Positions 30,129 to 49,700 of a stretch of 64,000 nt of DNA are shown piece by piece. How positions within the stretch are numbered: the stretch's first letter is position 1; every line of letters begins with the position of its first letter. The notes under the pieces are model-generated. The model was not told the DNA's origin and did not search any database. It worked only from the letters and a program-made list of their open reading frames with translations. A program made the translations under genes and the position numbers. This DNA is from Tubulanus polymorphus (lineage: Eukaryota > Nemertea > Palaeonemertea > Tubulaniformes > Tubulanidae): assembly GCF_964204645.1 (NCBI RefSeq), contig NC_134029.1, forward strand, positions 2,489,001 to 2,553,000, given 5' to 3'.

Positions 30129-32196
30129 TTACTCGGTAACGCGATCTGGATTCATTTGTTTTTGCGGACAGTTTCGTGAAATGTGCCCCAAATTATGGCA
30201 GTTGTAACATCGTACAGCACCCGAATTGTTGTACGGTGGTTTATTATTTTGAGTGTGATGAGAGGGTCGATTAGCGTAACACCTCGCCGTAGTGTGACCG
30301 GCTATCTTACAATTCTGACAATACAGCGGTGTTTTACAAGCTCTATCCGAGTGACCGACCAAGTTACAATATCTGCACGGCTTTGTGCGACAATCGGTGA
30401 TCACGTGACCCGACATTCGACAGTAAGCGCAATACGGACGATTCTCGACGAACCCCGGATATTTCGGACAACAGAACTTTGTGTGATCGCTTCCCCCACA
30501 CATCGTACAGCCTCTGGATTCAACCAGGTTATCACCGCTGAAAACGAAACCGGATCATGGCGGATTAACGAATGTATACTCAGTGACTAAGACAATGATT
30601 AATCCTATAGCAATGATATTTCAAAGTTAATTTATCTGACTATTTCAATATTAGAAATATTCATTGAAACCCCTTGTATAATTCATATTAATGGTTTTGT
30701 AAGCATAAAACAAAATCTTGTATGAATCTCGGATTACATTTTAAATTATTTGAGATATCTAAGATATGATATATTTTCTGAGAGCTCACCTCGCAGCAGC
30801 AGTGAACGTGTCTTTAATTACAGTTGAATCTACAGCAGTATTTGAAGTACGACTCGGCCAACCTGATTTCATCGCATTCCCTATATCTAAATAGATAAAC
30901 TCAGATTACCCGGTAATCATCTAATATTGCAGTTTATTCCAATCGAATGATAAAAACGTTTTAACTGTTTACCAGGCACAGACTGCTCTTCATCCCAAAC
31001 TGGTTCAGGTGATGTAACCACTGTGTGTTGTAATTCTGATGCTATATTTTCACTTGATCTCGTATGTTTCAGTCGGTTTTTCTGGTTTCTCTTTTTCCTA
31101 CCTGAACGTTTTTTCCCACCAGAATCAATAGAATCTACTGGTGATGGGGTAGAGCGTTGAGGTTCAGTAGATGCTGGTCTGTGGGGGTCAGTAGATGCTG
31201 GTCTGTGAGGATCAGTAGATGCTGGTCTGTGAGGTTCAGTAGATGCTGGTCTGTGGGGATCAGTAGATGCTGGTCTGTGGGGATCAGTAGATGCTGGTCT
31301 GTGAGGATCAGTAGATGCTGGTCTGTGGGGATCAGTAGATGCTGGTCTGTGAGGATCAGTAAATGCTGGTCTGTGAGGATCAGTAGATGCTGGTCTGTGA
31401 GGATCAGTGTGAGCTGCTACTGCCGTTGGCTGATGTAATTCTGTCTCCCAGTTCTCTCTGTTTTCAGATTGATATAAACGATTTGAATTCCACGAATCTC
31501 TCTGGTGACCTTGACTGGAAGATGCTGGTTGCCATGATGATCCACTATCACTGTAATGATGTCGATTGTAACCTGTCGGTTGCCATGATGATCCTCTATC
31601 ACTATTGTGATGACTGGAAGCTGCTGGATGCCATGATGATCCATTATCGCCATGGTGATGTTGGTTGCGCGATACCGGTTGCCTCGACGAACCTGTATCG
31701 CCATGGTGATATTGATTATAAGATGCAGGCTGCCATGACGACCTACTATCTCTCTGATATCTGGTTTCATTGAAGTCATGCGACTGGTATGTGGTCGTAT
31801 CCCATGAGCCTCCATTATCAATATGATGCGTTTGCCCTTGACCCCAGTAAGCCTCATTCTGGTGATTGAAGGACTGTCTGCCGGGTTCCTCAATGAGAGC
31901 TGGTGGTGGTGATGGTACAACATCAGTACGTCTAGTTTCAGAGATGTTGCCGGTGCTGGTAGCAGCTGGGTTCACTGCAGATGCAATTGGAGGTGGTGGT
32001 CGGAGAACATCAATAAACGGCGGTGTCCAGGGAACATCAGCTGAATGTGGAATAAACGCACCACTGAAATCTGTAAAGAAGTTTTTATAGTTGAACAATT
32101 TGTCAAATTTCAAAAAGTTGCAAATCATTGACGCAATACGTACTAGGAAACGACTGCATCTGATAAAACTGATATGGATTTACTGGTGCTCCGCCA

Positions 32197-32227
<31 letters not shown>

Positions 32228-35200
32228 CACACATCATCATACGAATGTAAGCCTCAGGAAGATCGGGTTTTAACTGAGCTGTTGAAGCTGGCGGCCGTTT
32301 TCTGATCGGTCTCAGCGGATGTTCAGTCATATCAGCATCAGATTCCGATGTAGAATGAGCCGAAACATTCAAACCTTTCAATTTACGATCAGCTTTTCTC
32401 TGACACTCTGAATAACGAAATCAGTACATGTTTTACTAATAACAGGCATCAAGATTTATGCAATACTCCGAGTCAGTGTGGTAACCATAATATAAACTCC
32501 CACACTGAGAATAAAGAGTCCTTGAGCTAACATCTTCATCAACATTTCAACTCTATCCTAATAAGTCATCTTCAGAATCATATTTAACATTACCCTCATT
32601 GTCCCTATTTCTAACTTAAATTCACCCAAGTATTCCCGTAGATGACTATTAGGATACAGTCAAAAGCTCAAGGAAACATTTTGGACAAGGTTCAGTGTTT
32701 ATTTGTGAGAGAAAGTAAAATAATTACCTATTTTGTATAGATGTTCGTATATATTAACAGCTGGTCCAACCTTTGCGAAATCAATCAGACGAACATGAAC
32801 TAAACCACCAGGACTACATGCCACCTATTAGACAAGTACACAACTATATTCCACAACTCTGTTTCTCACAGGTTTTCTCGAAATGAAGTCACGATTACTA
32901 GTAAATGAGTTCTCACCACTTCGACCCTGAAAGTTTTGTCTTTCGTGAACGTTTCGAAGAAAGTCATCGATTCCCTTGAAAAGGTGGACAGTTCCTGACA
33001 TCCGATTGCGCACTTTACAGCCTTTAAACATAGAACAATACACTGCATCATTCTCGGCAGGTTAGGTGTAATTAACCCAGATATAACACCCACATCGATG
33101 ATCGTGTCAGGCATATCAGGAGTTAAATAGGATAACCACTTTTATTTCACTAGGCTTTTCCTTGACATGTATGTTGCTTTCCCTGACTTGATCTGCTAAC
33201 AATTCAATCAATTAACAGTCAAATTTGATAGACATAACAGAAACTGTTTGCTTTTATGCGTAATCTAGCAATCTCAACACATTTCCCTGACTTTTGGCTA
33301 TTTTCAACAAATTTCCCAGACTGTTTTAAAGAAAAGAAAATTACCCAACTTTTCACTGATTTCCAGGTAAAATGGCCACTCTGTTAATTGTGACAAGTTC
33401 TAAGACAAAATACAGATAGAGATTTCTGTTCTAAGAAAAACCTGGTGTAAGGCGGAGGTGGCGGTATATCATGGGTTCACTGTACCTGAAATGGCGCGAG
33501 ACCGACTAGAGGCATACACCTCAAATGTTCAATACGAACTCTTGCACTCGTTCCGTGATCCAAAAAACGAACTTTCACTTTCTGCAAAAACAAAATCGAT
33601 GGTTTCAAAATAGAGCAGCATCGAAAATTGAGAAATCAGATTTCATTGAGTTCAAAATTGAAAGCAACGTCAATGTCAAACTCATTTAAATAATCATCAA
33701 ATAAGTCATCAAATTACTGTTGCCACTAATTATGAGTCCCATTCAGATAACAACGTAGCCACACTCTGACTAGTGAAGTCATCTGTAATTTTCTGCATGA
33801 ATTTGTACTTCAATTTACTAAGAATCATTTACATCAACGATGACTTTGACAGTACGAAATATGAAATGAATACCGGGTATGTGAAACGAACCTCTGTTCT
33901 CTGGTCAATGTTTTCTAGTTGAGCCCGATACCACACTTTCTGAAACTGAGCCAATACGACAGTTCCTACCGATACTGTTATACACGGGCATGGCGAACTC
34001 TCACCCAGATTTCTGAGAATACCAGAAAAAAGACAAACATCAAACATGAACAAAATGAGTAAATTGCCTGACCCTTGACAAAAACTCGCTTATTAAATCA
34101 TAAGACCTCCTCAGAGGGGACTCTTTCTTCTTGCGCCAAAAATTCAAATTCCCTGACTTTTCCCTGATTTTCAAGAAAAGAGTTAGAATTCCCTCATCCG
34201 TGAAAACCCCGATTAAAGTGAGCATCTTACATCTTAAATATGACTGAATACGGTACTGCATCGTATGATTTCAATATCATAATAGGGGTGGGAATAAATA
34301 AACAATGATTGACAGCTCTTACTGAATCATTCCCTGTAACTGTTGAATTTCCTCTTCAGACCGGACACGATAATGACGCAGCCAAAATGTGCCATCACTG
34401 TGGAGATTGTTCGTTACTTTCGCCAAAAATGTGCAACCTACAATAAATTCACGTTAATCAACGTTTTGACTGATGTAGCAAGTTTTATAATCGATATTGG
34501 AACAACATGTAACACTAACCTGGAGTATAAACACCCGACCAATTGCACGTCTCCTCAGCTTTCATCAGCAATGCATTCATTTGTTCATCGCTCAGTTTAT
34601 TTTCAGTATACAACTCAGGTTTTATTTCAGGAGTTTTTTGTCTCAGTTTCTGTTGATTGTTAATCATAGACTGTTGTCTATTTAACTGATGTTGATCTCT
34701 TGCGGAATCCACTGTATCAGCACCACTCATATTGATAGTTTGATCTATAGCAGCAGTGCTCAAGTTGAAAGTTTGATCTGTATTGGCATTGCTCAAGTTG
34801 AAAGTTTGATCTGTATTAGGAGCGCTCATGTTGAAAGTTTCATCTGTATTTACTGCTTCAGGGATCGATGTTAAAACGCAATCATTTGACAAACTTGGCA
34901 CCGAATCTAAAATATTTTCAAATCACAATTGAACTTAAAGAAGAGGACAAAAGTTCTTAATGATGTTAAACCCCTAAATTGAAGCTTTTTACTGACCTGA
35001 GATATCTACATCTTTAGCAGTAACCCAATGATTGGACACATCAGCAGTAGAACTATCAGGAACACTTATAGGTTCAGCAGTAGAATCAGGTAAAACTGAT
35101 TGATGAGCAACAGATGGAACTGGTTGAATTATACAGGACGATTTGGTGCAAGACTCTCTGCTATCAGGCTCACAGTACTCCCGCCTATCAGGCTCACAGG

Positions 35201-38000
35201 ACTCCTCGCTACCCAGCTCACAGGAGTCTCTGCTATCAGGCTCACAGGACTCCCGCCTATCAGGCTCACAGGAGTCTCTGCTACCCAGCTTGCAGGAGTC
35301 TCTGCTATCTGGCTCACAGGAGTCTCTGCTATCTGGCTCACAGGAGTCTCTGCTATCTGGCTCACAGGACTTCTGGCTATCTGGCTCACAGGACTCTCTG
35401 CTACCAAGCTCACAGGAGTCTCTGCTATCAGGCTCACAGGTATCCATGCTATCTGGCTCACGGGTATCCATGTTATCTGGCTCACCAGACTCTCTGCTAT
35501 CTGGCTGACAGATGTCCTTGCTAACTACCCTCCAGGTCTCACTGCTAGCTACCTCACAGGTATCTATGCTATCTGGCTCACAGGACTTCCAGCTATCTGG
35601 CTCACAGGTCTCCCTGCTGTCCTCAAAGATCTCCCCGCGAACTGGCTCTACGCACGTTTCATTACGAGCATCGTGGTAAATATCCACAGCCGTATTTTCA
35701 CCACCATCAACACTATCAGTCTCTAAAACTGGTGAGGATAACGTGAGACCTTCCTGTAATGAGAGGAAGAAAAAAATACAACTACTGCTATGTGAATCAT
35801 TATTATATCAAAATCTTAAAAATCTAGCGATATAGAATCAGATAACCTGTATAGATTAGCGGGGTAATGCTATCATTTGGTCGAAGTGCAACTTAGTACT
35901 TACTATTTCCATTGCTTTTTTTATGATATCTTCGACGAATTTAGCAATTTTTGCATCGACTTCACCTTCATCAATACTCGAGCAATCTGGAGTCTTGACA
36001 CAGATATTTGGAGGAGTATCCAATGAGACAGCAGCACGTTCATTACGATAATCCATCTTCTCACTCGAGACTTCAGAAACATCGATATCTCGTTCGGGCA
36101 GACGGGTGTAATCTACCGATATCTCATTATGGACCTGGACCAGTAAACCGGAGTTGGTTTGCTCCGAGCTCGCAGTATCTGTTGGAGTATCAGTCACTCC
36201 GGAGGATGTCATCAGATTCTGATTACTGTGTAAATATGCATCACTCTGCATCAATACGTTCACAGCTTCTTCCATTATATCCGAAACTATAGATGATGAG
36301 GAAGCGTTTATTTGATCCTCATGAGTAGTAGAATCACTCACACGTCGAGTGCTATCAGCGTGCTGCTGTCCTGACGTTGTCGCGCTATCAGTATATTCTC
36401 TAATGATATTAGATATGGCTTTTTGAACCTCCAAGTCGGCGACTTCCACAGCAGCTTGCGTTTTATAATTGAGTTTTTTGCTGATATTTCCATTATTATC
36501 GATGAGAGACCCGCGTTGTAGAATGCTGATCGGTTGCGCAATGTCAGCTGAGGTCACTGTGTGTACGATAACAGGGTCAGTAAAATCACCGGATCCTGAA
36601 TTGACTGTTATTTCTTTATCATCAGTTACAGTTTGAGGAGTATTATCAGGAAGAGTTGTGCAGTCCGGTTGTTCTTCGTGTTTCTACAAATATAATCAAA
36701 CAATGAGCAACTGCAAATTCTACTCTCATCTTCTGGGTTCAATTTCTTCTACAAATCTGTTAAAATTGAATGAACTTTTTTTTACAATAAATCAATTATC
36801 AATAAAACCTATTTCAATCACAGAGTAGAAAAATGAATTCGAAGTATATTTGCCGAAAAGTTCAGTTCAAAGTTTATTGATAATGGTCTAATTTTGATGT
36901 TAGACTGGTAGCTTGTCACTTCAACTGGTGAGATAGTTAGTGTCACAAGTCACTGTTATGTTAAAACAAATCAAGAAACTTTGAAGTTCAAATTGACATC
37001 ACAATTTTTACCTCTATTTGATTGTCCTCTTTAATAGTAACGGCATCATCTGAAATAAAGATGTAACTTCATTAAGTGAGAACCACAAATTTAAACAAAA
37101 TACATTCTTTAAAATGATTGACACGAGAAGCAGAACTTACTGTCATATTCAGCTTTAATGCGAGTCAATTTCAAAATTCGACCATCACAGTTGTAATGTT
37201 GAAATTGTTCCATACGTAGATCACATTCATGGTCAGTATGATATCGAATGAAACAAGCCCCTGGTCTGTTTCAAATCATAAAACACATTCAAATAGTTTC
37301 ATTTTTTGGATTACCGGGTTACTGATACAGGTATTAATCTACTGTCTGCACCCTCACCCCTCAGACAACCAACTGTCTGCACCCTCACCCCTCAGACCAC
37401 CAACTGTCTGCACCCTCACTCCTCAGACCACCAACTGTCTGCACCCTCACTCCTCAGACCACCAACTGTCTGCACCCTCACCCCTCAGACCACCAACTGT
37501 CTGCACCCTCACTCCTCAGACCACCAACTGTCTGCACCCTCACCCCTCAGACAACCAACTGTCTGCACCCTCACCCCTCAGACCACCACCTGTCTGCACC
37601 CTCACCCCTCAGACCACCAACTGTCTGCACCCTCAACCCTCATCCTTTCAAGACTTCCGAGATTTGGCCCAAGACATTTTTAATTATCATGGAATTTCAA
37701 TTGGCTTTTCGTTTCGCCACATAGACATGGTTTTATCATTACAGATGGTAAATCAGATTGTACAGATGATTATCTGAGGATGTACAAGGCACAGGCAGCA
37801 GATTGACATCGATATCTCAACGATAAAATCACCACCCAATACTTACGGCTTCTTCTGTATTCTAGATCCTCTTCTGTCCGGTTTTTTCTGATAGCTCAAC
37901 CATATATCAACAGCGTCGGGGAATAATTCAGCAGCTCGCTGATTATCAAATGAAGGTGGTAAATTCCTGATAACTATACCCGGCAGCTTCTTATAATCAA
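30129..38000 (-). CDS. RRM - Tudor - five CCHC zinc knuckle protein (5' end not found)
   Basis: Fifteen minus-strand exons with GT-AG ends and consistent phase: 38000-37847, 37265-37141, 37049-37012, 36683-35904, 35753-34997, 34906-34520, 34437-34323, 34012-33892, 33581-33486, 33042-32917, 32824-32728, 32407-32144, 32070-30973, 30886-30790, 30537-30129; about 1554 residues. An RRM comes first (IVIRNLPP as RNP2, PPGACFIRY as RNP1). Low-complexity repeat regions follow, then an extended Tudor domain (~747-932; 'VGTVVLAQFQKVWYRAQLE', 'KVKVRFLDHG'), a polyQ tract, more repeats and five CxxCx4Hx4C knuckles. RRM plus Tudor resembles TDRD10; the knuckles do not. AATAAA (30107-30102, minus) is 22 bp past the stop. 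The first exon starts in mid-codon, so upstream coding sequence is missing; it may be the 3' part of the gene at 39041-45923. Role in germline RNA granules is inferred. Confidence 0.85.
31160..31410 (-). repeat. 24-bp coding minisatellite (TDPHRPAS repeats)
   Basis: About ten to eleven head-to-tail copies of a 24-bp unit encode the octapeptide TDPHRPAS (variants TEPHRPAS, TDPHRPAF) within exon 32070-30973 of the RRM-Tudor-knuckle gene. Unit length is a multiple of three, so copy-number change keeps the frame. Copies are nearly identical at the DNA level. Confidence 0.95.
31490..31770 (-). repeat. Degenerate coding repeat (GSSWQPAS / HHGD)
   Basis: In the same exon the protein repeats a ~15-17-residue unit of the type 'GSSWQPASYNQYHHGDT', at least five times with substitutions. 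The content (Tyr, Trp, Gln, Ser, His, Arg) is that of a disordered, phase-separation-prone segment; that function is inference. Confidence 0.8.
33130..33385. repeat. Interspersed repeat copy in Tudor-gene intron (copy 1)
   Basis: Shares long similar phrases with 42970-43213: 'AATCTAGCAAT', 'ATTTCCCTGACTT', 'AATTTCCCA' and 'TGATTTCCAGGTAA', in the same order and orientation, over about 230-250 bp. Phrases such as TCAGGGAA and CTGGAAATCA also occur at ~34140-34200. Probably copies of one SINE-like or MITE-like family. Confidence 0.7.
34735..34850 (-). repeat. ~36-bp coding repeat (NTDQTFNLS)
   Basis: Exon 34906-34520 encodes four successive variants of a 12-residue unit: 'NTDETFNMSAP', 'NTDQTFNLSNA', 'NTDQTFNLSTA', 'AIDQTINMSGA'. 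DNA copies are close to identical, e.g. 'AAGTTGAAAGTTTGATCTGT' on the plus strand recurs. Confidence 0.85.
35155..35620 (-). repeat. 24-bp coding minisatellite (CEPDSRDS repeats)
   Basis: About nineteen units of 24 bp encode an octapeptide of the type SCEPDSRD (variants SCELGSRE, TCEPDSMD, SCEPDRRE). The plus strand reads 'CTATCTGGCTCACAGGAGTC' over and over. Because the unit is a multiple of three and stop-free in several frames, long spurious ORFs appear on both strands; only the minus frame continuous with exon 35753-34997 is supported. Cysteine recurs at fixed eight-residue spacing. Confidence 0.95.
37341..37640. repeat. 31-bp intronic minisatellite
   Basis: Nine to ten copies of a 31-bp unit, 'CTGTCTGCACCCTCACCCCT' plus 'CAGACCACCAA', in the intron between exons 38000-37847 and 37265-37141. 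Copies differ at one or two positions (CACCCC/CACTCC, ACCACC/ACAACC). The period is not a multiple of three; the plus-strand ORF across it is a by-product. Confidence 0.95.
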
Positions 38001-39040
38001 CTACAATAGAAAATTATCTCAGTAACCTGCAGTGTATGTTATTCTTTGTGCATCTTTTTGAGTATCAGGATAATTGCCACACATTTTTCATCAACTAAAT
38101 CCTTTATAATCTTTGGAATGAAGTACAACCAACGGTTCACCTTGATACTAACTACTAATTCTAAAGCCTACTTCACTAATCTAAGTAAATAAGTGTACAG
38201 CTTAATACTGTAGGACTAATTGATTGATTTGTCTTATTCTGCTAAAGTATCACCAAAAATAATATTCTGCTTTATACATCTATACTTAACAAAAATATGA
38301 ATGAATTTCAAAGTGAAGTTGTTTTTAGTTATATTCAAAGAATGAAGCTGGCCTTCTTGAGAATAATGAGGGAGGGCAGTTGTCCTTCATGTATTATTTT
38401 GACGTCATTTCTACGGTTTTTATTTCATGCAACTGTTGAGTCATGAGGTATATATACTACTTGACGAGTGACATCAGGCAGTTTGTTCTATTGTAGTGCG
38501 TAACCACCATCAATCAAGTGTATGACAAGTTATATTGTCGTGTCTGTCATGTCTCCTCAGTCTATCGGATATTTCTGACCATAACATCAAATTACCGACT
38601 TGCCTTAGAACTTCTGGATCCAGTTCCTTGATTCTGAATATTTGAGTTATGTTATTTATCGAATATGAACAATTTTCATAAGAGTCTAACTATGGAACTA
38701 TGAAACTGGTCCTGTGGTCACGTGAATGTGTTCATTCAAAGACAAGAACAAAAACACAAATAATTGGTTTTATATGGATTCTTGTTTATTATATTATAGC
38801 AAAAAGCACAGATTTCAATAATCTGCTGTAAATATTTACAGTCACTTGAATTATTACATACTTCGTCTCTCTACACATTTGCGACACTAGTTTTCTAATT
38901 AGTTCATTCTATTAAATCATTTATTCATTTTCTATGTTACATTTATTCATTTTCTATGTTAAGTACATTTTATTGTCATTAGTCTAACAAGCTTACAACT
39001 GATTCATATGCATATAGGCTGGTGCAGCACCTGATGTAGA
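38001..39040. other. Interval between transposase exon and RRM exon; no exon found
   Basis: On the minus strand this holds the 3' UTR of the transposase-containing transcript: AATAAA complements occur at 38785-38790 and in a short tandem duplication 'ATTTATTCATTTTCTATGTT' at about 38918-38960. I searched for a first exon of the RRM gene (an ATG followed by a donor in phase 1) and found none that works with a normal intron length. Confidence 0.55.
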
Positions 39041-40896
39041 TCACAGATTCAGATGCATGATTTGATTAGTTTGCGAATGCGTTGTTTGATGCGTAGGAGG
39101 CTGGTGCAGCACCTGCTGATGCTGCTGCTGCTGCTGCTGCATGTGGTTAGCGTTATGTTGTGTGTTGATATGAGTAACGGGAGGATGAGGAGAATGCATC
39201 GGCGATGGATGTTGCTGCTGCTGATGCTGTTGTTGATGATGCTGCTGCTGCTGCTGCTGCTGCTGGTGTGATACAGGATGACTCATCAGCATCGACTGTC
39301 CACCAGCGGGTGCTATATTAACCGGTTGATAGTGAGGATGTATGATAGTGGCGGTCATCGTGACCGGCGTGTGCAGTAACCCGGCCTGTAAATACCCATC
39401 ACGGACGACGTCCACTTTCTGACTGGTTCTCTCGTGGACGGCCATCAACCACATCGCGTGAACCGGCTTCAGAACGTTCATACGTAGATCGACATTAACC
39501 GCTTCCATACGAGCGACCGTCTGATCGCCGTTATGATACATCTGCTGTTCTAACTGTTTAACCATCTGCTGTAAATACCACGTATGAAAACATTCGCGTA
39601 GATCGTCTTTATAATGTTTGACGACCGTTAAATCGATCGGTTGTAGTTTATCGGCGACCTGCGACGGTACGAACACGACGTAGATCGCGTGCTGTCGTAG
39701 TCGTTCTAACAGACCGTCGCCGCGGAACGGTTTATTAACGTCGAACACGGCCAGCGACGGATGATCGGGAACTAACCCCTGAACGTATCGTTGGTGTCGT
39801 ACGTACGGTACGATCACGTTATCTACGAACTGATACAACGTCGTCTCGTCGGCTTCGTGATTCTCAGAGTGCGTTATATGCCAACCGTTCGGGAAGTTCA
39901 CGTTCGGGTGACACTTATCGGTTTTACCGCCGTAGATCACCTGCGGCGGTAACAAACACCCGGACATCGTTACGGCTAACATCACCGATATCTGACGTTT
40001 ATCCTCGTGGTTGCTGTGATTGACGATAATCGGGGCAGAGTTGGCGTCGTTTTGAGGAACGGTCCAGTCGTTTCCCGGTACGAGATTCAGAGGAATCATA
40101 TCCCAGTTTATAACGAGCGTTTCCGGGATGTTATTCTCTTGCATACACGACCGGACGCCGACGATAAACGACGTTCGCACCGCCTCGAAATCCTCCGGTA
40201 ATTGTTTCGCCGGTTTTTTCTTGTTATCCTTCGCGCCGCGGTGTTTCACGAACCCCATACGCTGCAGGAACGACTTCGCCCACGACATCGTCACGTTTAT
40301 CGGTCCGCCGTATTGCGATAAACTCGTCTTATCGAACTTCGTGATGATTCCCTCGGCGGCGGCCATGACGGTACGAGCGTTCACGACGCCTCCGCTCGCG
40401 TGCGTCTTCTTCACCCATTCCTGAACCATCACGTCGTAGTTGCCAAGTCGAAGCGGTTGACCTCGTTGCCCCTTCGGTAGCGTGTTCACGTCCGTACTGT
40501 CTTTAGCTTTAGCCACCAGTCTCAGATACGTTGATTTCATGTGTCTCACCGTGCTATCGCTGATAGTTTTACCCAATTCGCGGCTGTATATTTTCACCGT
40601 TCGCGGTATGCCGACGTCCAGAGCCGATTTCGCGATCTTCGCTCTCAGCTCGTCCGAGTAATAATTGTACTCTCCTCGTTTACGCTTGGCGCCGCTGGTT
40701 TCTAAAGCTCGTTTCACGCTGTCGTTCGCCGCTTGCATCATCGTATCTGAATCGATATCGACTGATTTATCCGCTTCCTCCGACGCTTGTTTCTTCGGTT
40801 CATCGAAAGACGAACTCAGTTCCTCGTCTAACTCGGCCTGACGAGCCGCAGCTTGCTCCCGGCGAGCGCTCTGACGCGTTTTCTGTCTCGTTCGAC
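39041..40896 (-). mobile_element. Transposase-derived exon, pogo/Tigger-type DDD (DD35D)
   Basis: The exon encodes 618 residues: a lysine/arginine-rich start, a psq-like helix-turn-helix ('YSDELRAKIAKSALDVG' … 'SDSTVRHMKS'), a CENP-B-type second DNA-binding region ('GNYDVMVQEWVKKTHASGG' … 'SWAKSFLQRMGF'), and a DDE_1 catalytic core. Three acidic residues are kept: Asp in NWDMIP (741 of the fusion), Asp in FDVNKPF (861) and Asp in LQPIDL (897), the last pair 35 residues apart. A glutamine/histidine-rich tail follows (polyQ at ~39120-39265). The frame is intact. No terminal inverted repeats were seen around it. The acceptor at 40897-40898 has a good pyrimidine tract (CTTTTCATTGCAG); an ATG at 40924 just before it could start a stand-alone protein. 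Confidence 0.85.
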
Positions 40897-43800
40897 CTGC
40901 AATGAAAAGACTTTTTATTTTCAATTCTGATATGATATCTTACATATTTCTGCTCCGTTCATAAAGGAATCAGGACTCCGAGCCTTGCGCAACAATGACT
41001 CGGTTACACAGTCGGATGTATAGGTGAGAATTTAATCGACTTTAATTTTTTATCCACTTTGAAACTGAGTTCAGGTACAGTGAAAGCCTTCTAAAATGCA
41101 ACTGTTGAGACCGATGAAAAACATGGTGTTATAACCAATTTGGCTTTAGAAAGAATTGGCATTTACATTGAATTTGAGTGAGATTGAGTAAATTCATTCC
41201 CTGAAAATGTTGGTATTTAAAAGGGTGACGTTGTAACGGACTTTGACTGTGTATCGAGTATAATTAAGTAAGTCAAAATTTCTTATAAAACATCATTATA
41301 TGAAATGTTCATTCCCCATTGGGGACGTTGAGAGCACACAAAACATGGCTAGAAGAGGCCTAGGATAGGTATAAATCTGAGAGTGACCTGAACGAGGATT
41401 TGAATGACGCTGAATGCACATACCTGTACGAAACAGCTTTTAGTCTTCATCACTTTATGTTTCCCCCACCAGGTGGACGCACGCTTCTCGAGATTGATTG
41501 ACTACATATTTTCTCATTAATTTGCGACTCCTTTCAAAAGAACATTTTTCAACGGAACTCAAACCCGAAATAATACGCCGGTCATTTTTTTCTTGTTTTA
41601 ATTTGGAAATTCACAAAATACAACATACAAAATACAGAGGGTTTTTTCGTTTCAAAATTCATGATTTTTCATATTAGATCTTGTCAGAACTACCGGTAAA
41701 TATTCACATGCCAAAACTTATTTTAGGGAGGTGATGAAATCCAGACAACCAGCCATGTCTGCACTCCACATTTTCAAAATAATGATGTTTTAGAAGGACT
41801 ATTACAACAATCAGTTAATATATTATACCACACAGGGAGGAGTAGGAAGGAGGAAAGAGGGAGCCGGGAGGGTACAGTTCCAGTTAAGAAATATTAGAAG
41901 GCATCTAAAAGAAAAGGTTATTTCTCGAATGAAGCATAAGAAAGATTTTCCAAGAGAATAAATAAGTTTGTAGGTCCTTGAAATGGAAGGCAGGGAAATA
42001 CACTTTAAGTCCATCCACCTTGGAGTTATAGTGAAGAGTGAATATTCTACCTCTAGTTCTACGCCGAGCGGCTGAAGGTCTATCATCATCCTGCGAATGT
42101 CCCGGGGAACCCATCGTATCAAACGCTTGTGGATTCTCAACGAGGCGATAATCGCGACACGCGATCGTATGCTCTTCTTTAGGCTTCGATTGAAATTCTT
42201 GAACTAGAAAATTCACGTAATAAAAATATTGATTGTATCTTCTCATCAATGTAGTCTAACTGATGTGAAAATGTAATCTATCTTTAGGGAGGAATGAGTG
42301 AAATTATTACTTTTGTTTTCCATGAGGTCATTAAGACAATCAGGTAAGGCAACACCTTGTGTATTGAGGAATCGGAATTCAGCGTGATAAACAGGCATCC
42401 CGTTATCATCAGCCACCTACAAACAATCAATTACAGTCTGTTAATACACTTTCAATCCAATAACTTAATAAAAACCCTCCACATTGTCGGGAATGAAAAA
42501 TGGAGTTCTGTTTTAACCATTCATTCAAATCGAAAAAATGTTGAACCAGCTCGAAATTAAATTGTCATTACTCCGAAATAAAATACTAAATTAATACCTT
42601 TGAGAGAATTTTACATTGAAGTAATTTATTTTTGACGAGGTCATTGAATTCCCAGCGAATTTGTCGATCGAGGTCTTCTTTAGATGTCTCACTCAACGAA
42701 CAGCAAAACGCCTTTAAAAAATATTTAACGATTTGATCAAAACTCATAAATAAACCATGAAAAGATGAAAATAGAGATTTGATTTTTGTGGTAATCAATA
42801 CTGACCTGATACGGTAAATTAGACACGATATCATCTCTGAACGGAAACACTTTATCCAGTGGAATTTCGGCGTTGTTTCCGAAATCTAAAAACCTCACAA
42901 GAGCCAAACTCTACAACAAAGAAATATATACCAGAGATTTCATCTAGATTTTAACCCAGTAGATCATCAGGGTAGCCACTTTAATTTAACTTGCTTATTC
43001 CCTGACTATTCACTGACATGCTAAGTTTTTCCCTGACCTGATCTGCCCAGATCCAATCCACTAACACAGTCAAATATGTAAGACATAGATGGAAACTATT
43101 TGATTTTTCACGCAATCTAGCAATTTCATCAAATTTCCCTGACTTATTGCTTTTTTACAATTTCCCAAACTTTTTTTAAGAAATGAAATTTTTCCGTGAT
43201 TTCCAGGTAACTCGACGTACCTTCTCCTGAGAGACTTTACAAACGAGGCCGCGGTACCAACGTTTATCTTTCTCGTTCTGCGCAAAACACAATGAATCGA
43301 TTTCAGGAACTTTAGACGAGTCGCCGTAAGAAATCCAATCACTACTCGTTAACCACGAACACCTAACGAATAACAATTTCAGTTATAAATACCAGTAGCA
43401 TAATAGAACGATAACCACACTCAAACGTGGTGAACGGATAATAAGATAAAAACCCACTATCTACAGATTAAAAGAATTTAAAAAGAAGAAATTTATTAAT
43501 TCGAACAATCTAAAAGAAATATATATTAGATATATTTTAGATTGTTTGAATTAATAAATTTCTTGTTTTTAAATTCTTTTAATTTGTAGATAGTGGGTTT
43601 TTATCTTAATACCAGTAGCCTTTTTATTAAAAACACGATGAAAGCTACATATCACACACACTTCATAATTAATCATTGATAACACGTATTGAAATGTAAA
43701 CTCACCTGATTTCATAATTCACGTGTAAAAGTCCTGTATAGATTTCTTTCTCTAATTCGGGATGAACCCAGAAATAACCGTTCGGGTTCATCAAATTAGC

Positions 43801-45923
43801 AACTTGAACCGTGTACGTTTCGCCTAGAAATATATAATTACAATCAGAATACACAATACAATAGGATTCATTCATCATTGTGAGGTAAAACTTTATAAAC
43901 TTACCCACTGTGACTTCGATAAGACCGTTCTTATTGATCTTACGTGGAATTTCATCTTTCGGCGCATTCATTTTTACTTTCATTTCAGGTATTGCTTCTT
44001 CGATTTGACCGAATTCCAGTTCGAATGACATGTCTAACTCGGGGAAAGCTTGCTTGTCACAAGAGAATTCAAGTGGATTCAGCTATAAGAAATTCAAATC
44101 CTATCAAACCTGAAACTGTGCAGCTTAAATCTAACTATCAAGAATTGGAGAGCTGAGTGGTTTATTTACCTTTCCATCCAAGTCTTGCATCCCCTTCTGA
44201 AATTCCTCTTCATCGACAACTTCTACTAACGATGCAAGTTTGTCACGAACCTGAAAAATAATATAGCAAGTGATATTTCATTAGAAAACAGAGCTAGGTT
44301 TTTGTCTTTCACATCAATATTTCACTGAGTTGAGAATCAAGGAAGATCAGTAGTAGTACTGTATCTAACAGGATGATGATGGTTTATGTTACCTGTTCCA
44401 TTTGCAGTATGTGTGATTTCTGACTTTGTTTTTGTTCCAGGATCCACGACTGTTTTTTTCCACTCAACTCTTTCAATTCGCTGATTATAGCTTTACCCTG
44501 ATTACGTAACATCACTGTCAGCGCTTGCACTTTATCTTTCACTTCTTGTTCATAAATCGACATCCTATAAAACAACAACATTGATGAAAAATTCAACATC
44601 TAAGGCTAAAAAAAATTGATACCTTGTTTCTCCGCTCTGCTGAGCTTAAATGTTGATCCGGCCGGCCGCCTATCTACCCTATACATTACTTTTTTTTAAA
44701 TCGGGGGATCATTTGTACCATAACAGACCCGGCCGCTATAGAAATGAACTGTTTACAAATTTTATCATATTTTACAAAAATGACCCGGCCGCTGCGGAGA
44801 AACAAGGTATCATTTTTGTTTAGCCAAAATCCCATCAGCAGAGAGAGAGAAATTGTGTTTCTCTGAAGATCATTTAAGTCAAGTTCAGTGTCTTTCAGGG
44901 GTCATTTTCATGAAGAAACTCAAAATGATGAAATAAAAGTTACCTTTCCACTAAATCATGTTCAGCTTTGTCCAACTCCTGGAATTTCCGTTTCACGATA
45001 GTTTCGTTTCTGAAAATGAGCGAAATTGATGAAAATTTCTGACGCACTAAAATAGCAAATATCAGAGAAAGGAAAATTTGAGGCTTACTTCATAAACGCT
45101 TCCAATGTTTCTTGTACATTTTGACGTTTCTGAAATATTAAAAAAGTCCTAATTTCAAATCCAAGTATAAACTAAGCAGAAATAAACGAACCATAAATTA
45201 AAACGTTTTACGGAATTTGCTTCAAATTTTGATATTAATAATTTTCTTTCACAAAGCGACTTACTTTCGACGCCAATGTGACAACTTGATGGTCGCGACA
45301 TTTCCCGCGATGAATAGAAGAGTTACATTCAACACATAACTTATACGCTGGAAGAATAACATAAATATTTCATTCCCAAAGAAAGAAGCAAAAAGAACAA
45401 AAAAGGGAAAGGCCAGGGCTCAACAGAAAATACACGTGCTGTTATTATATCAACAGCAGGACCACTTAACAACAGCATCATTACTTTAAATTTAGAACCA
45501 TAGATTGAATTGGTTCATTATTTGAGAAATTTAATTTTCAGCGATGAAGGAATGACAAATATAAGCGGCGAGTGAAATAAAGAAGAAAGGACAAAAAATA
45601 CAGGCCACACCCAAAAATACATTTAGCTAACCCCTGGGAATAATACAGCATTTACAAGTGTTGTTTATCTATTTTGACGGTTCAAAATATAACGCTTTAA
45701 CTTGGACGAAACAAAAGCGTTAAATAATCATCCGACGAATTCAGTGAAATTCACAAATATATCTTGAAACGGCAGAAATTCCTTTTATTTCTGCGAAAAT
45801 CGACGAATAAAAAGCGTCGAATTTATCGTTAATTAACGCGTTAATTAAACACTAACCTCCTTCACCGATACAATCAGGGCATTCAAACGATATCGGCTGT
45901 TTTTCACAACACTCGCACAACAT
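39041..45923 (-). CDS. B-box-like zinc - coiled coil - Tudor protein fused to a pogo-like DDE transposase
   Basis: Fourteen minus-strand exons: 45923-45857, 45347-45265, 45129-45089, 45009-44944, 44564-44393, 44250-44170, 44082-43905, 43823-43706, 43362-43221, 42910-42806, 42711-42598, 42416-42311, 42203-42051 and 40896-39041; all GT-AG, phases consistent, 1093 residues. Residues ~3-45 form a B-box-like cysteine/histidine cluster (CECC, CPDC, CVEC, H..H); ~50-170 are coiled coil; ~229-430 are an extended Tudor domain (DKRWYRGLVCKV, LALVRFLDFGNNAEIPLDKV). This part recalls RNF17/TDRD-type and TRIM-type proteins; Tudor domains of that kind bind methylated Piwi tails. The last exon is a full transposase-derived protein. 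It splices in frame across a basic junction (ARRRTR|GRTRQKTRQ). Alternatives: the transposase has its own promoter, or it is an alternative last exon. Confidence 0.75.
41078..41249. mobile_element. Short pogo-like MITE in the intron before the transposase exon
   Basis: Ends are CAGTGAAAGCC… (41078) and …GTAACGGACTTTGACTG (ending 41249), imperfect inverted copies of CAGTSAAAGYCC. A TA lies immediately left; the right flank is TG. It is 172 bp long and non-coding. It lies between exon 42203-42051 and the transposase exon. Confidence 0.55.
42970..43213. repeat. Interspersed repeat copy in Tudor-gene intron (copy 2)
   Basis: Second copy of the family at 33130-33385. It fills most of the intron between exons 43362-43221 and 42910-42806, ending less than ten bases from the donor of the former. 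Confidence 0.7.
43388..43619. mobile_element. Hairpin retro-element-like insertion with 12-bp target duplication (copy A)
   Basis: A direct repeat AATACCAGTAGC flanks the body at 43388-43399 and 43608-43619. The body contains two near-perfect inverted arms of about 70 bp (for example 'AAAACCCACTATCTACAGAT' against 'ATTTGTAGATAGTGGGTTTT') joined by a short AT-rich loop. The left end reads 'ATAACCACACTCAAACGTGG'. It lies in an intron of the Tudor-transposase gene. A sister copy is at 51456-51646. Confidence 0.8.
44618..44812. mobile_element. MITE with 18-bp terminal inverted repeats
   Basis: The ends GATACCTTGTTTCTCCGC and GCGGAGAAACAAGGTATC are perfect inverted repeats bounding ~195 bp. Inside, 'CCCGGCCGCT' or a variant occurs three times. 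It is located in the intron between exons 45009-44944 and 44564-44393 of the Tudor gene. No coding capacity. Confidence 0.8.
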
Positions 45924-46757: not shown

Positions 46758-49700
46758 ATGGCGGACAGTGACGAGGAAATCGGATCTATTTCTCCAACAA
46801 CTCCTGACAGTAATTGCGCCCATAGCGGCCCCAGGATTGTGACAATATCTAAAACTGAAACAGGGTTTGGTTTTAATGTTCGGGGTCAGGTTAGTGAAGG
46901 TGGACAGTTAAAGAGTATTAACGGAGAGCTGTATGCACCTTTACAACATGTAAGTGCCGTTTTGGAGGGTGGTGCTGCAGAACGAGCAGGAATTATGAAA
47001 GGAGATAGAATATTAGAAGTGTAAGTTCAGTTTGCATAGTTGTCAAATGTGTTTAGACTGTAGATTCCAGATAATTAAGATGTGCTTATTAAAATGAGAC
47101 TTAAATCTGATACAGCAACACCTGAACCTACCTAGGCTAACCAGCTAATTCTGATTGGATTGATTATTGTGGTTTTGATTTTAGGAATGGTGTAAATGTC
47201 GAAGGTGCTACTCATAAACAGGTTGTGGATTTGATTAAATCTGGTGGTGATGCATTAACATTGACTGGTGCGTAAACATATTTCCAGTTGATGAAGATTA
47301 AAAGATGCTTTTCATAATCAACAGTTATAGAAGTGTTTGTCTAATATTGTGATATGTTCTGTTTTCCTACTATAGTGATTTCAGTTCCGAGGCAAATAGC
47401 AGAGAAGTTAGAACCCAGCGACGACTCATCGGGACCGTCACTTATTGATTATTCTGAGAAAAGAACTTTACCGATATCAATACCAGATTATCAAGCATTA
47501 GAGAAAAACGGTGAAAGATTTGTGGTAAGAAAAATAGACTCTGGGTATTAAAGGATTAAACAGTAATATACTGCTGGTATGAAATGGTTAAACAATGGGC
47601 TAATAGACTCTGGGTATGAAATGGTTAAACAATGGGCTAATAGACTCTGGGTATGAAATATTTAAACAATGGGCTAATAGACTCTGGGTATGAAAAGGTT
47701 TAACAATGGGCTAATAGACTCTGGGTATGAAATGGTTAAACAATGGGCTAATTGACTCTGGGTATGAAAAGGTTTAACAATGGGCTAATAGACTCTGGGT
47801 ATGATAAGTGTAAAATCTTCGATCTCCAGTTTGGTGTATAAGTTAGAACTCTACAAGTATTCAATCATCTTATTATTCAATCAGTGATTTGTTGATTATT
47901 TTCAGGTTTATAATATTTATATGGCTGGACGTCATTTATGCTCAAGACGGTACAGTGAATTCGCGGAATTGCATCGGCAACTTAAAAAAGAATTTTCAGA
48001 CTTCAATTTTCCGAAGATACCGGGGAAATGGCCCTTCCAATTGTCCGAACAGCAATTAGACGCTCGGCGGAGAGGTTTAGAACAGTATTTAGAAAAAGGT
48101 TTGTGCGAATAACTCTTAATTCCTCTACTGGTCTATCTGGTATTCGTTCAGTTCAGTAAAATTAAAATTCGATTTCCATTTGGTATTGTTATTTCAAATA
48201 TCGCCTAGTCCTGCACTGCTCTATTCGATAATCCAACTTATCCGATAAAATTTTGACTTCATATCCCTTTATTCGGCGTCTCAACCATAAAGAATCTTCA
48301 CTTACAATACTTTGTTATGTTCTAATATCGATCTGTTTGGGGGAATATTAGGCCCTATGTTACTGCTACTGCATACTCATGACCTAAATTGACCATTACG
48401 CAAAAGTGTCGCAGAATTTAAGAGAAACATGAAATGTCAAGTTAATTGTGAAGGGCTTGTGTCTGGTATATTATATAAGGAATCATCGTTACGGTCTGAT
48501 TATATGAAATACAAGAAATTAGCAATGCAATATAGAATGCCATTAGACTCAATAATTCAATATTTTTATCCACTGATTTTTGTGGTTCTTCAAACCGGTA
48601 ACCCCCTTGTTCGGTATTCCACTGGTTTAAACAGGGTCTACCTATTATGAAACTAATCTCGGCGATATTGTCGTGATATTTTTTCCAGTTTGTGCAGTTC
48701 GAGTAATAGCCGAGAGTGATGTAGTACAAGAATTCCTATCAGCGTCCGACGATGATTCTGTATGTTTACTCGAAATTAACCGCATTATTTGAAAAATCTT
48801 TCTTTGCGATCACGATTATGATTCATTCATGTTTGCGAATGATGTTTTTAGAATTGTAATACGACCAGTGAGGTGGAGCTGAAAGTTTTACTGCCCGATC
48901 GAAATATACTTACAGTCACAATCAAACGCAATCATAACACTGAGCAGGTCTTTGATGTAAGTTTCTGGATCAATATCATCGCTGTTGACTGTGATTAATT
49001 GGTTATTGACACATTTCAACTCTGCCTAATTCAATCAAGTATAAGGTTAAAAAATGCTATCGCAGTTAAGTAGGTTAAGAATATCTAGCCTTTAATCAGA
49101 GCTTTCATTTGTAATTGATAGCAGCTATGTGTACTGTACTGTGTTGTTTAGGATGATGTTAATCTCGTAGATTATTGATTTTCTGTCAGTGAATTCCCCT
49201 GGGTTCATTCCGAGGATATGATTTACTGGCATTGATTTCTAGTTATTTGTTTGCTGAAATGGATGTTGAGATTATTAATCTTTCTATTTTCTGTGTTGTT
49301 TTTCTAATTTAGGTTGTGGTACAAAGACTTGGTCTCACCGATGACATTTCTATCAATTTTGCGCTATTTGAAATTGAAGAATACAACTTCGGTAAGTGAA
49401 AAGAAATCCCTAGTTTGCATAGATCGAGAGGAAATATATTAACGTTTAGTCCCAAATTGATTGAATACTATCTGTCGTAAGATCTTCTCGTTTGTATTCA
49501 AACCTGTCCAAAGTTCTAGTCAAATTGGCTTTTTGGACAATCATTATGGTGTCTGCTTCTGTAATGTCACATCCAGCTTTTCCAAATGATGACTTATGAT
49601 TAGTAATCTGGAGATATACAAATCGGTACTGGGAAATAGTGACGACTTAATAAAGTGAAAAATTATCCAAATGATGACATAACTGAGTTTGTAACGAGCA

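Follow-up and report, generated by a model that had tools for sequence, protein, structure and literature searches.

The gene under study lies on the minus strand of a 64,000-nt stretch of the Tubulanus polymorphus genome (the window; NC_134029.1, positions 2,489,001 to 2,553,000). Rebuilding the gene model independently from the sequence, we found 14 exons running from 45923 to 39041, with GT-AG boundaries at all introns. The coding sequence starts with an ATG at 45923 and closes with a TGA at 39041; it comprises 3,282 nt including the stop, encodes 1,093 residues and contains no internal stop codon. This model agrees exactly with the preliminary description, in which exon 13 ended in phase 1 at 42051, the next exon was a 1,856-nt frame starting at 40896 and the total of 3,282 nt was open throughout. 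Three AATAAA poly(A) signals (minus strand, 38920..38979, starting at 38974, 38947 and 38925) lie just 3' of the stop codon. At its other end the gene stands head to head with a plus-strand gene whose ATG is at 46758; we take this neighbour to be an SNX27-like gene, and the layout fits what is expected of an ordinary host promoter region. Elsewhere in the window, minisatellites with 24-31-nt units lie inside or overlap open frames at 31158-31408, 35152-35618 and 37341-37642 (PHRPASTD, CEPDSRDS and similar repeats), and at the one near 35 kb both strands are open.

All exons of the gene are given here on the minus strand. Exon 1 (45857..45923) carries the start codon and the Cys-rich first half of a B-box-like zinc module (ligands C3-C6-C15-C18), and exon 2 (45265..45347) carries the second half (C27-C30-H35-H42). 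The B-box-like module proposed earlier is visible only as this eight-ligand pattern, the Pfam match to zf-B_box (E 3.3) falling below the cut-off. Exons 3-6 (45129-45089, 45009-44944, 44564-44393 and 44250-44170) encode a heptad-like region that, judged from sequence only, would form a coiled coil. They are followed by an extended Tudor domain in exons 7-12 (44082-43905, 43823-43706, 43362-43221, 42910-42806, 42711-42598 and 42416-42311). Exon 13 (42051..42203) encodes a linker with a basic stretch, RRRTRG, at its end, and leaves in phase 1 through the donor GAG/GTAGAA. Intron 13 (40897..42050) is the longest of the gene, with 1,154 nt against 79-509 nt for the others. Exon 14 (39041..40896; 1,856 nt, 619 codons) is entered in phase 1 and encodes a pogo-type transposase with two putative helix-turn-helix (HTH) regions, a DDE_1 domain and a Gln-rich tail. 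Two short elements were also observed in other introns. Intron 8 holds a foldback MITE-like element (43434-43616) with 90-nt arms that are 90% complementary, of which there are dozens of scored copies and 1,442 first-look candidates across the genome, and intron 4 holds an element (44604-44825) whose 32-nt inverted ends are 94% complementary.

The Tudor part is well defined. Residues 285-358 match the Pfam TUDOR family with 50.4 bits (cut-off 23; E 2.8e-13), and the closest solved structures are those of TDRD1 (5m9n, E 7e-8) and Drosophila Tudor, so that the region both passes the Pfam cut-off and resembles solved extended Tudor domains. As in these two proteins, a Tudor core (WYR...FLDFGNNA) is followed by an SN-like part; unlike them, the protein has one Tudor domain only, and N298 replaces the first aromatic residue of the cage, where both have Phe. 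The other cage residues, Y305, F323, F326 and N328, are kept (three of four aromatics plus the Asn), and binding of methyl-arginine is plausible. The Tudor half is single copy in the genome. We also found Piwi/Argonaute-family exons at several loci, together with one 3,029-codon open frame that contains at least 12 Tudor domains (G000:C2:2664274-2671314), indicating that a Piwi-Tudor network is present in this animal. The intronless state of that multi-Tudor frame is unusual.

The transposase exon was previously described as pogo-like, with a DDD triad whose last spacing was 35, and our searches bear this out. Residues 775-926 match the Pfam DDE_1 family with 33.3 bits (cut-off 22; E 4.4e-8), and the triad consists of D741, D861 and D897, separated by 119 and 35 residues (D-119-D-35-D). 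Nearly all Passer and Fot elements have DD35D, and the host genes POGZ and POGK descend from Passer (PMC7386202). Exon 14 combines a DDE_1 domain with a DD35D triad, the pairing that marks Passer, which supports a pogo origin and a Passer-like assignment on the basis of DD35D. In a tree restricted to DDE_1 copies of the same genome, exon 14 fell loosely near three DD35D relics (L010, L012 and L013; support 65/62) and away from a Tigger-like group with spacings of 29-36. Two HTH regions had likewise been proposed; matches to HTH_Tnp_Tc5 (15.5 bits, cut-off 22.2) and HTH_Tnp_1 (12.9 bits, cut-off 24.1) were recovered, but both are below the Pfam cut-offs. The Passer N-terminus carries HTH_Tnp_Tc5 either alone or with BrkDBD (PMC7386202), and the Pfam search found no BrkDBD in our protein. 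Searches with the pogo core gave no match among PDB sequences even at E 5 and none in NCBIfam, nor did scans of viral and prokaryote collections yield any relatives, in keeping with an animal gene. AlphaFold, run on 421 residues without an alignment, returned a model with pLDDT 34 and pTM 0.25, and because of these values the model was left out of the fold search.

Whether the two halves form one gene depends on the junction between exons 13 and 14, which reads RPSAARRRTRGRTRQKTRQSARREQ at the protein level. To score coding potential we used a codon model trained on the other host genes of the window. The 155 nt from the exon-14 acceptor to the first in-frame ATG, which is 52 codons past the acceptor, scored 39.5 bits in the true frame versus 21.9 and 11.9 in the other two, and none of 2,000 shuffles equalled the true-frame score. 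The 150 nt immediately 5' of the acceptor scored -7.4. Exon 13 is coding-like as far as its donor, where the coding signal ends without a stop codon; the open read-through past the donor is non-coding by score, at about -23 bits over 150 nt. The reading frame across the junction is not due to chance. With the coding signal already present at the exon-14 acceptor and the first in-frame ATG lying 52 codons further on, translation must come from a coding exon further 5' that has a phase-1 donor. Since coding ends at the exon-13 donor and resumes at the exon-14 acceptor, both sides need a phase-1 partner. When intron 13 was scanned, no other coding-like segment was found, the best reaching 8.0 bits, whereas exon 13 reached 23.2 and the 5' part of exon 14 reached 39.0. 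Splicing of exon 13 to exon 14 is the most parsimonious interpretation. At the sequence level the locus is a candidate host-transposase fusion, in which one ORF passes from host exons into a transposase domain over a junction with legal splice sites.

An alternative is that two adjacent genes lie here. The Tudor gene would end within exon 13 or shortly beyond it, and a separate domesticated pogo gene would start at an ATG at 41421 and be spliced from 41388 to exon 14. We consider this unlikely, though less so than the other alternatives discussed below. It draws on a candidate 36-nt exon in intron 13 (41388..41423, minus strand; AG/GTATG...TCAG/gtcact), which is open, runs from phase 1 to phase 1 and contains the ATG at 41421. 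Its acceptor is fair (5.3) and its donor strong (8.7), better than the one at 42050, and about 3% of Markov-simulated introns attain its score. The exon-13 donor scores 3.8 in a gene whose donors range from 3.3 to 9.8, and is thus among the weaker ones; intron 13 far exceeds the others in length; and an ATTAAA at 41602 could terminate a short Tudor transcript. We weighed the weak junction donor, together with the stronger in-phase donor and separate ATG inside intron 13, against the one-gene model, as we did the missing first cage aromatic of the Tudor domain and the low pLDDT of the AlphaFold model. However, a 36-nt exon with a good acceptor and phase 1 at both ends suits a cassette exon of the fusion equally well. 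If real, it may be such a cassette, in which case it inserts MCIQRHSNPRS into the protein, or else the place where a pogo transcript of its own begins. Furthermore, the read-through to the Tudor-only stop at 41907 is non-coding in character, AATAAA signals cluster after the pogo stop but none was found near exon 13 or in intron 13 until 40919, and the basic stretch at the phase-1 end of exon 13 continues into exon 14. Intron 13 also contains an old dispersed repeat (41250-41072), with at least 39 other copies in the genome at 70-82% identity. We considered it as a remnant of the captured element's own end, which was not supported, the 3' flank being without a matching repeat.

Apart from CAG-repeat matches, we found no other DNA copies of exon 14 in the 268-Mb genome, and its closest protein matches there are about 25-30% identical. 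No pair of terminal inverted repeats (TIRs) was found flanking the exon, and its 3' flank has no repeat and is unique in the genome. Exon 14 forms the longest branch (2.37) in the tree of same-genome DDE_1 copies. Its synonymous codon score is +0.136, which is host-like, while all 11 other DDE_1 sequences are negative (-0.02 to -0.14). Because it is single copy, lacks TIRs, has only distant kin and uses host-like codons, exon 14 appears to be old and tamed and not a fresh insertion. The in-frame model supports capture as the last exon, in line with the earlier proposal that splicing of a host gene captured the transposase. Near-identical DDE_1 frames of about 740-775 codons (L046-L053) occur on several chromosomes, and this family is young and probably recently active.

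The catalytic surroundings of exon 14 have also changed. Among the same-genome DDE_1 copies, Glu follows the first Asp in 11 of 11 other rows and is Met in exon 14 (DE to DM), His stands at +5 of the second Asp in 12 of 12 and is Phe in exon 14, and Thr stands seven residues before the third Asp, ahead of QPxD, in 11 of 12 and is Ala in exon 14. The three Asp are present, but with these near-invariant neighbours replaced we do not retain the description of the transposase as intact, and its catalytic activity is probably lost. The properties of an active pogo element, namely TIRs, sister copies and unchanged triad neighbours, are lacking.

These observations bear on two further readings. In the first, the fusion is real and the DDE domain serves the host as a working nuclease under the guidance of the Tudor part, as might happen in programmed DNA cutting. 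This is a sub-case of the fusion model and does not exclude it. In its favour, exon 14 retains the three catalytic Asp and the Passer spacing, and POGZ, JRK and JRKL are host genes in which recognisable triads are likewise kept (PMC7386202). Nevertheless, the loss of Glu, His (+5) and Thr, near-invariant in the other copies of the genome, makes a working nuclease improbable. The second reading, a recent selfish capture in which a still active pogo transposon in the intron uses the Tudor promoter, was an option of the preliminary description and could appeal to the open frame, to the three Asp and to the young, multi-copy DDE_1 elements of the genome, but it is largely refuted by the single copy, the missing TIRs, the deep divergence (kin about 25-30% identical), the host-like codons and the changed signature residues.

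Taken together, the data point to one host gene as the likely explanation, a single-copy Tudor gene whose terminal exon is a whole Passer-like (DD35D) pogo frame, captured long ago and attached through a phase-1 splice. Under this model, the gene that gained the pogo frame would have had a B-box-like zinc module, a coiled coil and one extended Tudor domain. After the capture, the element would have lost its ends and sister copies, and exon 14 would have taken on the codon usage of its host. The exon may have kept its fold and its DNA-binding regions while the catalytic surroundings decayed. In the working model that we regard as most likely, by analogy with POGZ, POGK and CENP-B, the pogo part would bind particular DNA sites or act as a platform for chromatin proteins, and the Tudor and zinc/coiled-coil part would recruit or oligomerise partner proteins. 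These partners could plausibly be arginine-methylated, for example Piwi-type proteins, and we infer a possible germline role for the gene. The more specific proposal, that a domesticated pogo transposase joined to a Piwi-pathway Tudor protein supplies the small-RNA silencing machinery with a sequence-specific DNA-binding arm, is speculative and we hold it to be rather doubtful.

The proposed gene resembles several known systems. POGZ, a Passer-derived vertebrate gene with zinc fingers, HTH_Tnp_Tc5 and DDE_1, similarly is a single-copy host gene that joins a zinc-containing N-terminal host part to a whole pogo DDE_1 domain with DD35D spacing and the Asp triad kept (PMC7386202). It differs in having 7-9 zinc fingers and neither a Tudor domain nor such a coiled-coil module, it is of vertebrate origin, and orthology is not expected. 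POGK places an N-terminal protein-recruiting domain on a Passer-derived transposase (PMC7386202), although that domain is KRAB in place of Tudor, the gene is mammalian, with BrkDBD/HTH_Tnp_Tc5 and DDE_1, and one catalytic Asp is changed (DN35D). In-frame splicing of host 5' exons to a transposase encoded by one exon is likewise known from CSB-PGBD3 (PMC3459987) and SETMAR (PMC6326780), as well as from KRABINER, as cited in PMC10799480. In these three fusions the partners are instead CSB, SET and KRAB, the elements involved being mariner and piggyBac. They are also younger, and their transposon ends or sister copies survive. CENP-B and fission yeast Abp1-Cbh1-Cbh2 are likewise domesticated DNA-binding pogo proteins, and the yeast proteins silence retrotransposons (PMC10799480), but they are without a Tudor part and belong to a different pogo subfamily. 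A literature search across about 5.4 million open papers, supplementary tables apart, turned up no Tudor protein carrying a DDE domain. This is consistent with the earlier remark that no described Tudor-DDE fusion was known, and with novelty, without proving it. Thus, host-transposase fusion as a kind is already known from POGZ, POGK, SETMAR, CSB-PGBD3 and KRABINER, and the Tudor partner seems to be new.

New regulators have repeatedly arisen by host-transposase fusion, and in most known cases the partner is a KRAB, SET, zinc finger or F-box domain. A Tudor partner, if true, would connect proteins of the network for germline silencing with a DNA binder that derives from a transposon. In this network, recruitment to DNA is thought to go via nascent RNA. 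The fusion would thus allow a direct question to be asked, namely whether Piwi factors may be brought to DNA sites without RNA. Even without the Piwi link, the gene would clearly illustrate the ancient capture of a single-copy, one-exon transposase in a genome that still has young DDE_1 elements.
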